Assembly: GCA_902530455.1 (NCBI GenBank)
Contig: CACAAD010000002.1
Location: 1-64,000 of the forward strand
Direction: 5' to 3'
Source of the DNA: an uncultured Pelagibacteraceae bacterium
GTDB lineage: Bacteria > Pseudomonadota > Alphaproteobacteria > Pelagibacterales > Pelagibacteraceae
DNA length: 64,000 bases
Part shown: positions 51,016-53,840 of the stretch, piece after piece
Position numbering within the stretch: position 1 is the first letter of the stretch
How the letters are laid out: each line of letters begins with the position of its first letter
The notes under the pieces: model-generated
What the model saw: only the letters and a program-made list of their open reading frames with translations
Told to the model about the DNA's origin: nothing
Database searches by the model: none
Program-made: the position numbers and the translations under genes

Positions 51016-51503
51016 AGAATTTTTAAAAAAGTTTTTTTATTTAAAATTGACAATAAGCATCTAAGGTCTTTTTTTGATAATGCGATACAGCCATTAGTAG
51101 GCTTGTAATTCTTTCTTGCCACGTGCAAAAAAACGGCACTCCCCTTTTTTCTCCTTATAGGATTGAGGTTATAATTAATTACAACAATAATATCGTAAAT
51201 ATTTTCTTTTATATGTAATTTTTCAGCACTGCCTTTAAATGGAAATTTTATAAATTTATTGTAAAATTTCGACTTTGTATCATCACACCAACCATAATTT
51301 TTTTTGATTGGAATTACCTTTAGTTTTGATAGGAGTTTTTTAACTCTCTCTTTTCTGTAAAAAATATATTTAAGCTGAAATCTTCCTCTAGGGGTACAAT
51401 TATCCCCCTCAATTTTTCTGCTTACAATTCCTCTTTTACCGACAGCACATTTTGCTTTATAATCTTTAAAAAGGACAAATTTATTTTTTAATATTACATC
51501 CAT
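51012..51503 (-). CDS. L,D-transpeptidase (YkuD catalytic domain)
   Basis: FLHVARKNYKPTNGCIALSKKDL (H...NGC motif), GDNCTPRGRFQL; start trimmed to ATG at 51503. Confidence 0.88.
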   Translation of the reverse strand: MDVILKNKFVLFKDYKAKCAVGKRGIVSRKIEGDNCTPRGRFQLKYIFYRKERVKKLLSKLKVIPIKKNYGWCDDTKSKFYNKFIKFPFKGSAEKLHIKENIYDIIVVINYNLNPIRRKKGSAVFLHVARKNYKPTNGCIALSKKDLRCLLSILNKKTFLKIL

Positions 51504-52128
51504 GATTGATAAAAAAAATACCATTTTAGCATTCGGAAATAAAGAATTTAATAATTCTTTAAATGAAATTAAAGAATTTCTTAGTTTCAATTTAATAATT
51601 TTAGATAATATTAAAGACTATAATTTTTCAGAAAATTATCAGGGAATTATAATCCACGAGGATGCTTTTAAAGATAAAAATTTGAAAGATTTAATCAATA
51701 ATCAAAACGTTAATAAAATTATCTTTTACAATTCAAAAAAAGTTCAAGATTTAAATGCTGAAAAATTAAATTTACCCGCATCTTTTGATCAAATTAATAA
51801 AATTGTAATAAACAATATAGTAAAAAAAAAATTTAAAACAAATTCATCTCTAAAAATAAATAATTACAAGTTAGATAAAAACTTAAGACAATTAATCAAA
51901 GATACTGTCTATTTAGAGTTAACTGAAAAAGAAATAGATCTTATAGAGTTATTAAAAAAAAAATCATTTATAAAAAAAAAGGAAATTCTCTCTACCATTT
52001 GGAAATATTCAGATGATGCAGACACACATACCGTAGAGACACATATTTATAGATTAAGAAAAAAAATTAAAGATATTTTTAATGATGAAAAATTTATTAA
52101 AAGTTCAAAAAAAGGATATACCATTTGA
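51502..52128 (+). CDS. OmpR/PhoB-type winged-helix regulator with degenerate receiver domain
   Basis: C-terminal LTEKEIDLIELL...TVETHIYRLRKKIKDIF...SSKKGYTI; N-terminal half lacks recognisable receiver acidic pocket. Confidence 0.85.
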   Translation: MIDKKNTILAFGNKEFNNSLNEIKEFLSFNLIILDNIKDYNFSENYQGIIIHEDAFKDKNLKDLINNQNVNKIIFYNSKKVQDLNAEKLNLPASFDQINKIVINNIVKKKFKTNSSLKINNYKLDKNLRQLIKDTVYLELTEKEIDLIELLKKKSFIKKKEILSTIWKYSDDADTHTVETHIYRLRKKIKDIFNDEKFIKSSKKGYTI

Positions 52129-52253
52129 AAAAGAGAAATAAGTTTGCCAAAGATTTAATGACCCCAAAATACCGGACAAGAGTCGTAAAACCAAAAAAAG
52201 GTAAAGGTAGTTTTAAGAGAAAAAGAAACAAAAAGTTTTTGGAATTAAATTAA
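52125..52253 (+). CDS. arfA: ArfA-like alternative ribosome-rescue factor
   Basis: TTG start overlapping the upstream TGA: (M)KKRNKFAKDLMTPKYRTRVVKPKKGKGSFKRKRNKKFLELN*. Matches ArfA core RxRVxxxKKGKGS[YF]xRK; 42 aa, missed by the ORF track. Confidence 0.78.
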   Translation: MKKRNKFAKDLMTPKYRTRVVKPKKGKGSFKRKRNKKFLELN

Positions 52254-52258
52254 AAAAA

Positions 52259-53185
52259 TTATAATCTTGCTCCTATTTGTTGAATTATTTTAGAGGAAAG
52301 TTCAGTTCCTTTTTCTAAACTTTTTTCCAAAGAAAGTTGATTAATATATCCATGTAAAAATCCGGCAGCAAATAAATCACCTGCCCCAGTCAAATCTCTA
52401 ATATTTAAATTTTTTTTTGCATTGCATTTTATTACTTGATCGTTCAGAATTGCTACAGCACCATTCTTACCTCGAGTTACCACCATCAACCTTTTAATCT
52501 CTTTTGCGAAAGTAACTACATCTTGAAAACTTTTTGCGCTTATTAAAGCCATAATTTCTTGTTCATTAGCAAAAGTTATATTTAGTTTATTTTTAACTAG
52601 TTCTAAAAAATAATCTTTATGTCTTTCGACACAAAATAGATCAGAGAGAGACATGGCTGATTGTTTTGAATAACTAATTGCTTTATTAAATGCTTTTTGA
52701 GGATCTCCTTTATCCCATAAATATCCTTCAAGGAAAGTCACTTCACTTTTTTTAATTATTTTTTCATCAATATCATTTTCATTTATCTTTCCTGCAGTTC
52801 CTAAAAAAGTGCACATTGTTCTTTCTGAGTCTGGAGTTATTAAAATCAAACATGTACCTGTCGGTGTTTTTTCAGATTTAATATTGTAATGGAATTGAAC
52901 TTTTTCTTTTTTAAGTCCTTCTGAATATTTTTTACCCAAATCATCATCATTTACTTTTCCGATAAAACCGACTTCATTACCCAGCTGCGAAAGACCAACA
53001 ATTGAGTTAGCTACTGAGCCCCCAGATATTGTCTTTTCAATTTTTAAATTATTAAGAAGTTTTTTAAATTCTTTTTCATCAACTAGTTTCATTGTGCTTT
53101 TAGTAAGTCCATTATTACTCAGGAAACCGTCATTTATTTTACATATAACATCGACAATAGCATTTCCTATACCTAGAATTTTCAT
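52259..53185 (-). CDS. PfkB-family sugar/adenosine kinase
   Basis: GSVANSIVGLSQLGNEVGFIGKVNDDDLG, DLTGAGDLFAAGFLHG; start trimmed to ATG at 53185. Confidence 0.93.
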   Translation of the reverse strand: MKILGIGNAIVDVICKINDGFLSNNGLTKSTMKLVDEKEFKKLLNNLKIEKTISGGSVANSIVGLSQLGNEVGFIGKVNDDDLGKKYSEGLKKEKVQFHYNIKSEKTPTGTCLILITPDSERTMCTFLGTAGKINENDIDEKIIKKSEVTFLEGYLWDKGDPQKAFNKAISYSKQSAMSLSDLFCVERHKDYFLELVKNKLNITFANEQEIMALISAKSFQDVVTFAKEIKRLMVVTRGKNGAVAILNDQVIKCNAKKNLNIRDLTGAGDLFAAGFLHGYINQLSLEKSLEKGTELSSKIIQQIGARL

Positions 53186-53186
53186 G

Positions 53187-53840
53187 TTAAGCTTTCTTTG
53201 CAACAAATTTCTTTTTTCTATTTGGGTAACAGCTTTTACAAATTTTGCAAGTTAAACCAAAGCAATCCCTTGCCTTACAATACTCTCTTCCATACCAGAT
53301 AATTTGAAGATGGAGTTTATTCCAATTTTTCTTTGGGAATATAGATTTTAAATCCTTTTCAGTTCTCACAACACTTTTACCGCTAGTCAATCCCCACCTT
53401 TGAGCTAAACGATGAATATGAGTATCAACAGGAAATGCAGGATAGCCAAAGCCCTGGGACATGACAACACTCGCAGTCTTGTGTCCAACACCAGGAAGTT
53501 GCTCAAGTTCTTCGTAAGTATTTGGTACTTTATTCTTATATTTTTCAACTAAAGTTTTTGAGAGATAATAAATACTTTTAGCTTTAATTCTGTAAATTCC
53601 AATTTTTTTAATTAATCTTTCTATCTTTTTTCTTCCCAATTTTACAAAATGTTTTGGATGATAATATTTGGGATAAATATTTTTGGTTACATTATTAACA
53701 TTTACGTCAGTACATTGCGCTGAAAGCAAAACAGAAACGAGAAGAGTAAAAGTATTTTTATAACTAAGAGGTATTGGTACCTCAGGATAGATTTTATTCA
53801 ATATTTTTTGAATAATCTTAGATTTATTTTTCTTGTTCAC
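53187..53840 (-). CDS. nth: endonuclease III
   Basis: LLSAQCTDVNVN, LEQLPGVGHKTASVVM, VDTHIHRLAQRWGLT, CxxxxxxC...C Fe-S motif. Confidence 0.97.
   Translation of the reverse strand: MNKKNKSKIIQKILNKIYPEVPIPLSYKNTFTLLVSVLLSAQCTDVNVNNVTKNIYPKYYHPKHFVKLGRKKIERLIKKIGIYRIKAKSIYYLSKTLVEKYKNKVPNTYEELEQLPGVGHKTASVVMSQGFGYPAFPVDTHIHRLAQRWGLTSGKSVVRTEKDLKSIFPKKNWNKLHLQIIWYGREYCKARDCFGLTCKICKSCYPNRKKKFVAKKA

Follow-up and report, generated by a model that had tools for sequence, protein, structure and literature searches.

A short ArfA-like gene in Pelagibacteraceae, a probable minimal ribosome-rescue factor without tmRNA control

A short open reading frame that follows a regulator gene in the window (the whole 64,000-nucleotide stretch of Pelagibacteraceae DNA analysed here) belongs, on sequence, to the ArfA protein family and very probably encodes a minimal ArfA, which would recruit release factor 2 (RF2) and be free of tmRNA control. 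The protein would enter the A site of ribosomes stalled at the 3' end of stop-less mRNAs, where its basic tail, KPKKGKGSFKRKK, would occupy the vacant mRNA channel and the N-terminal half, which is short (N-x-[IF]-A-x-D-L-x-T-x-K-[YF]), would position RF2 for cleavage of the peptide from the tRNA. Steady translation of arfA would result from its overlap with the upstream gene.

A published survey covering more than 15,000 genomes recorded no arfA among 2,376 Alphaproteobacteria (PMC11633108), whereas we find the gene in about 80% of the genomes of the Pelagibacteraceae, which are among the most abundant marine bacterial families. The survey probably missed the SAR11 genes due to their length of 35-42 codons and their variable NTG starts, and a literature search found no paper reporting a SAR11 host arfA gene. 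Already known are the ArfA of one pelagiphage and a single precedent, ArfT, for a stop-terminated rescue peptide without tmRNA control; new are the host distribution, the extreme shortness, the accompanying absence of ArfB and the scale of phage carriage. The SAR11 protein would rank among the smallest rescue factors known, and it would represent an ArfA without tmRNA control in cells without ArfB.

Identity of the gene

The Pfam model for ArfA (PF03889) matches the predicted protein with 31.1 bits (gathering cut-off 25.5, E 1.6e-7) and is the sole Pfam family to match at E-values up to 10. A genome-wide search returned the same frame with an E-value of 2.7e-7, and other SAR11 and phage members score between 27 and 40 bits. 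In a PDB sequence search the matches were six chains of E. coli ArfA (E 0.004-0.008) and one irrelevant chain (E 1.1), leaving ArfA chains as the only credible ones. An NCBIfam scan of the protein gave no match, which fits with the annotation having missed the gene.

The sequence-only reading had proposed this frame and its relation to ArfA. The frame was reproduced exactly, homology and selection mark it as a real gene, and the Pfam score, the PDB matches and the alignment with E. coli ArfA agree on its identity. The E. coli sequence given there is correct as compared with arfA in NC_000913, and the core seen as common to both proteins (basic-x-R-V plus KKGKGS[YF]xR) is present in both. On its own, the peptide is probably disordered.

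Table 1. Features at and around the arfA-like gene (positions in the window) and copies of the tmRNA segment elsewhere in the same genome.
Feature	Position	Strand	Basis
Upstream gene, OmpR-type winged-helix protein (regulator)	51502-52128	+	Pfam Trans_reg_C 51.5 bits, residues 138-206
AAGGA Shine-Dalgarno-like site, 8-nt spacer to TTG	52112-52116	+	Sequence; enriched at this position in relatives
TTGA stop-start overlap with upstream regulator gene	52125-52128	+	NTGA in named-genome loci (78/80)
arfA-like gene, 42 aa, TTG start, TAA stop	52125-52253	+	Pfam PF03889 match, frame conservation, family spread
Conserved core segment common to E. coli ArfA	52194-52211	+	(Nearly) invariant in alignment of 30 SAR11 proteins
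Convergent sugar-kinase-like gene, conserved right-hand neighbour	52259-53206	-	tblastn synteny in most loci read
tmRNA segment copies	L284 855-886, 1687-1718, 1960-1991, 3413-3444 (G000:C7:9500-13600)		

Distribution, conservation and neighbourhood

A family-wide search covered 298 Pelagibacteraceae genomes at least 80% complete and detected an ArfA match in 241 of them, distributed over eight of ten genera. The record nearest to the window's gene comes from AG-404-C23, a single-cell genome (98% identity); the named carriers include HIMB058. At all 80 homologous loci from named genomes the frame is open and free of internal stops. Its pN/pS amounts to 0.196, as compared with 1.06 and 4.16 in the other forward frames and 0.37-2.53 in the reverse frames, and the five alternative frames are broken by stops in 11-80 of the 80 loci. 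The third codon position is the most variable (0.13, 0.06 and 0.31 for positions 1, 2 and 3). The arfA-like frame is under purifying selection, and conservation across SAR11 genomes, which had been proposed as a check on the gene, extends from the frame to its synteny.

The regulator gene, whose N-terminal half gave no receiver domain match in a Pfam scan, adjoins arfA in most genomes read, and an L,D-transpeptidase-like gene lies beside the regulator throughout the family. Downstream, 5 bp separate the arfA stop codon from the end of the convergent gene, which we take to be sugar-kinase-like from general knowledge of its gene family. Closed genomes of another Pelagibacteraceae genus keep the gene order found in the window, which presumably reads thiE, YggS, L,D-transpeptidase-like, regulator, arfA, kinase (convergent), nth, dapB and dnaJ, some of these names being assigned from general knowledge. 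In closed genomes of the family without a match, the regulator and kinase genes abut with nothing between them, and this clean absence indicates that the gene is not essential for the clade.

Start codon and coupling to the regulator

The proposed overlap of the start codon with the TGA of the regulator gene is present, and the start in the window is indeed TTG, but this codon is only one among ATG, GTG, TTG and CTG at the site in relatives. The 80 loci comprise 35 ATG, 25 TTG and 20 GTG starts, and among 30 genomes from the genus of the window two have CTG. The variable base of NTGA (A, G, T or C) also forms the third position of the regulator's final codon. Contrary to the view that the frame is devoid of a Shine-Dalgarno sequence, an AAGGA motif precedes the TTG (Table 1). 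A 4-nt Shine-Dalgarno core occupies this position in 36 of the 80 homologous loci, as compared with a background of 6% of windows taken from the upstream gene, an excess that is inflated in part by the Gly-Tyr codons conserved in the wing of the regulator.

Translation of arfA probably proceeds by termination-reinitiation. Coupling to the regulator, as put forward by the sequence-only reading, holds insofar as the overlap is usual (78 of 80 loci), but it is not universal: in genus g5 arfA is free-standing, has its own ATG and lies about 1.4 kb from the regulator.

Protein anatomy and loss of tmRNA control

An alignment of 30 SAR11 proteins yields the consensus MKKRNxIAKDLFTxKYxKRVVKPKKGKGSFKRKKK, in which N5, L11, K25, G26, K27, G28 and R32 are invariant and S29 is nearly so. 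Conservation extends to the N-terminal half (N5, A8, L11 and Y16) and is stronger in the basic tail than in the release-factor patch. Most SAR11 proteins comprise 34-42 amino acids, and the frame stops directly after the basic KKGKGSFKRKK core. Their alignment with E. coli ArfA (PF03889; PDB 5mgp, 5h5u and others; NC_000913) runs from N14 to about K44 with no internal gap, and N14, hydrophobic residues at positions 16 and 20 and an aromatic residue at position 25 are common to both. Within the RF2-contact patch the F25 position holds Y or F and L20 is kept; A18, L19 and L24 are replaced, the first two by K and D. The SAR11 protein also lacks about nine N-terminal residues of the RF2-activating minidomain (residues 2-31) of E. 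coli ArfA, part of which touch S12 and h44.

In E. coli, arfA is expressed from a self-truncated message, and tmRNA thereby suppresses ArfA. The known RNase III/terminator site of the E. coli gene served as a control and was recovered as a 3'-end hairpin of -28.1 kcal/mol (z -7.3). No such hairpin was found in SAR11 arfA, where over 80 loci the median for the most stable 50-nt segment is -6.3 kcal/mol, and no terminator-like site was found in the window. The hydrophobic C-terminal degradation tail is absent in 80 of 80 SAR11 loci, the frame ending at most about 8 residues past the basic core, which bears out the missing tail claimed before. With neither tail nor hairpin, both devices that place E. 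coli ArfA under tmRNA control are missing in SAR11, and the gene is not of the tmRNA-controlled E. coli type.

The tail of E. coli ArfA serves regulation (PMC5378476, PMC3989581, PMC8012679), and the protein cut at Asn47 is still functional (PMC5378476). SAR11 forms of 34-35 amino acids end at about E. coli residue 44, slightly before the tested limit of 47.

Other rescue factors and release factors

The genome from which the window stems harbours tmRNA (G000:C7; tag ANNKFALAA) as well as SmpB, the two components whose presence had been left to be checked. A substitute for lost trans-translation is thus ruled out, and the SAR11 ArfA-like protein would be an addition to trans-translation. ArfB (YaeJ), which serves Alphaproteobacteria such as Caulobacter as a back-up for rescue, differs from the SAR11 protein as a GGQ hydrolase of about 140 amino acids. 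It was found in none of 18 SAR11 genomes, most of them near-complete, in which proteins with an RF-1 domain (PF00472) are only of RF1 or RF2 size; in a class-wide sample of Alphaproteobacteria the ArfB model exceeded its cut-off in 19 of 58 genomes. A Pfam scan detected no GGQ-containing RF-1 domain in the 42-amino-acid protein. Since tmRNA and SmpB are present and ArfB is absent, the ArfA-like protein is, as judged by these searches, the only other known rescue factor found in SAR11.

RF1 and RF2 are both present in SAR11. In RF2 the switch-loop Trp (IGWG[HS]Q) and the pocket Phe are conserved, and the third contact position holds Val or Ile, as compared with the contact residues of E. coli RF2 (PMC5378476, PMC6299226); the window's genome encodes an RF2 with such residues. 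These residues are equally kept in lineages without an arfA gene and hence provide permissive evidence only for the use of RF2.

Proposed function and alternatives

The stop codon after the core, the lack of tail and hairpin and the translation through overlap make continuous production alongside trans-translation most likely, and the "always active" factor envisaged by the sequence-only reading fits this anatomy. Rescue activity and the use of RF2 are suggested by the likeness to E. coli ArfA. The release-factor contact is the weak point of this assignment, because with the N-terminal segment missing and Ala18, Leu19 and Leu24 replaced, activation of RF2 is not assured. The same features, a contact patch that is only partly kept and a missing N-terminal segment, would suit a factor resembling ArfT of Francisella tularensis, in which an ArfA-type basic tail senses the empty channel and RF1 or both release factors are recruited via other contacts. 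ArfT comprises 40 amino acids, has a KGKGS-like tail and an ordinary stop codon, is active without tmRNA-dependent truncation or regulation and, according to its authors, evolved independently and shows low similarity to ArfA (PMC6299226). The SAR11 protein falls into the same size class, has its own stop codon and lacks the hairpin, but it passes the Pfam ArfA model and retains Tyr or Phe at the F25 position, an aromatic residue that ArfT does not have (PMC6299226; ArfT was compared in size and gene layout). The conserved RF2 pocket likewise argues against such a factor, although lineages without the gene share it, and overall we regard an ArfT-like mode as unlikely.

More improbable still is the idea that the protein acts as a decoy or plug, sitting in the mRNA channel of empty or stalled ribosomes and triggering no release, for instance during hibernation or phage takeover. 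Such a role would agree with the stronger conservation of the basic tail, with wide phage carriage and with the finding that cells infected by pelagiphage HTVC027P are without detectable ribosomal RNA (PMC11066056), but a pure channel plug would have no need for the conserved N-terminal half, and there is no known case in the ArfA family. Hardly any weight is left for the notion that the frame merely extends the regulator by frameshifting, or is a chance frame, and gives rise to no separate protein. It does overlap the stop codon of the regulator, and an A-rich run precedes the overlap, but free-standing ATG copies in genus g5 and in phages rule out the extension, and ArfA homology together with a pN/pS of about 0.2 rules out a chance frame. 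A minimal, RF2-recruiting ArfA is by far the favoured explanation.

Phage copies

Pattern searching of IMG/VR brought up at least 194 contigs of viral origin with an ArfA relative. The proteins read range from 22 to 138 amino acids by the start rule used (mostly 30-67), all contain the KPKKGKG core, and the viral representatives tested all pass the Pfam ArfA cut-off; in PHROGs the viral relatives fall only into families of unknown function. Each of four contigs read presents a phage context. In a T4-like contig (L212) arfA comes after the large subunit gene of the clamp loader and ahead of genes for the small subunit and for a translation repressor of the RegA type, and in a second contig (L227) it precedes a late sigma factor and an SbcD-like nuclease; the other two carry an endolysin (L198) and a phage exonuclease (L235). 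A few other viral contigs with ArfA relatives may be host DNA.

Gene product gp30 of pelagiphage HTVC027P was annotated as ArfA by PF03889 in 2025; it is a phage and not a host gene, and the passages on gp30 in that report do not mention a SAR11 host gene (PMC12753301). Given the wide carriage by marine phages, cultured phage-host pairs make it possible to test why a phage should bring along a rescue factor. Small ArfA-like genes are common in marine viral contigs (L178-L257), including within clusters for T4-like replication and late transcription.

A BLAST search of a phage collection with the window protein matched only Roseobacter phage CRP-13 (E 5), by chance and inside a 313-amino-acid protein, and a second phage query matched nothing; the low-complexity filter probably renders this search nearly blind for a lysine-rich protein.

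Relatives in other lineages

SAR11 lineages without a KGKGS-type ArfA carry small NPxAKxLRTPK[FY] proteins. In genus g283 a SAR11-trained profile finds MKRNPIAKALRTPKFKKKVIKDKKKYNRKK... elsewhere in the genome, and two of the three g283 proteins (L287, L288 and L290) score as DUF7230, with 27.0 and 27.8 bits versus a cut-off of 27. Similar NPIAKxLRTPKY proteins without KGKGS occur in the sister family f2 (L289, L291 and L292). DUF7230 (PF23876) resembles ArfA in its RNPxAKxLRxxxF+xKVxxxK-type core but has no KGKGS motif. DUF7230 members found independently of ArfA scored 25.1 against the SAR11 ArfA profile, as compared with 12.4 for the best of 40 column shuffles. A literature search on DUF7230 found no paper. 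These likenesses suggest a link between ArfA and DUF7230 as a lead, making the latter a candidate homologue. A broader scenario, which we put forward as a speculative and rather doubtful one, would have SAR11 swap the ArfB of other Alphaproteobacteria for a constitutive ArfA of about 35-42 amino acids that circulates between hosts and phages and is joined to DUF7230 proteins as further rescue factors without KGKGS.

Small ArfA-scoring frames are scattered in other Alphaproteobacteria (L043, L048, L049 and L050), for example RNPVAARLSRARFQPKQVIPRKGKGSYKRRSKHPQG, and the PF03889 matches elsewhere in the class, such as L048, L049 and L050, look partly real.

A side observation concerns the tmRNA locus of the window's genome, where a GC-rich stretch of 32 nt from the tmRNA gene recurs three times no more than 2.6 kb away from that gene (Table 1). 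About a dozen further genomes in the genus show similar weak matches to the tmRNA model next to their tmRNA. The repeated segments may be attachment-site scars, left by integration that took place repeatedly at tmRNA.
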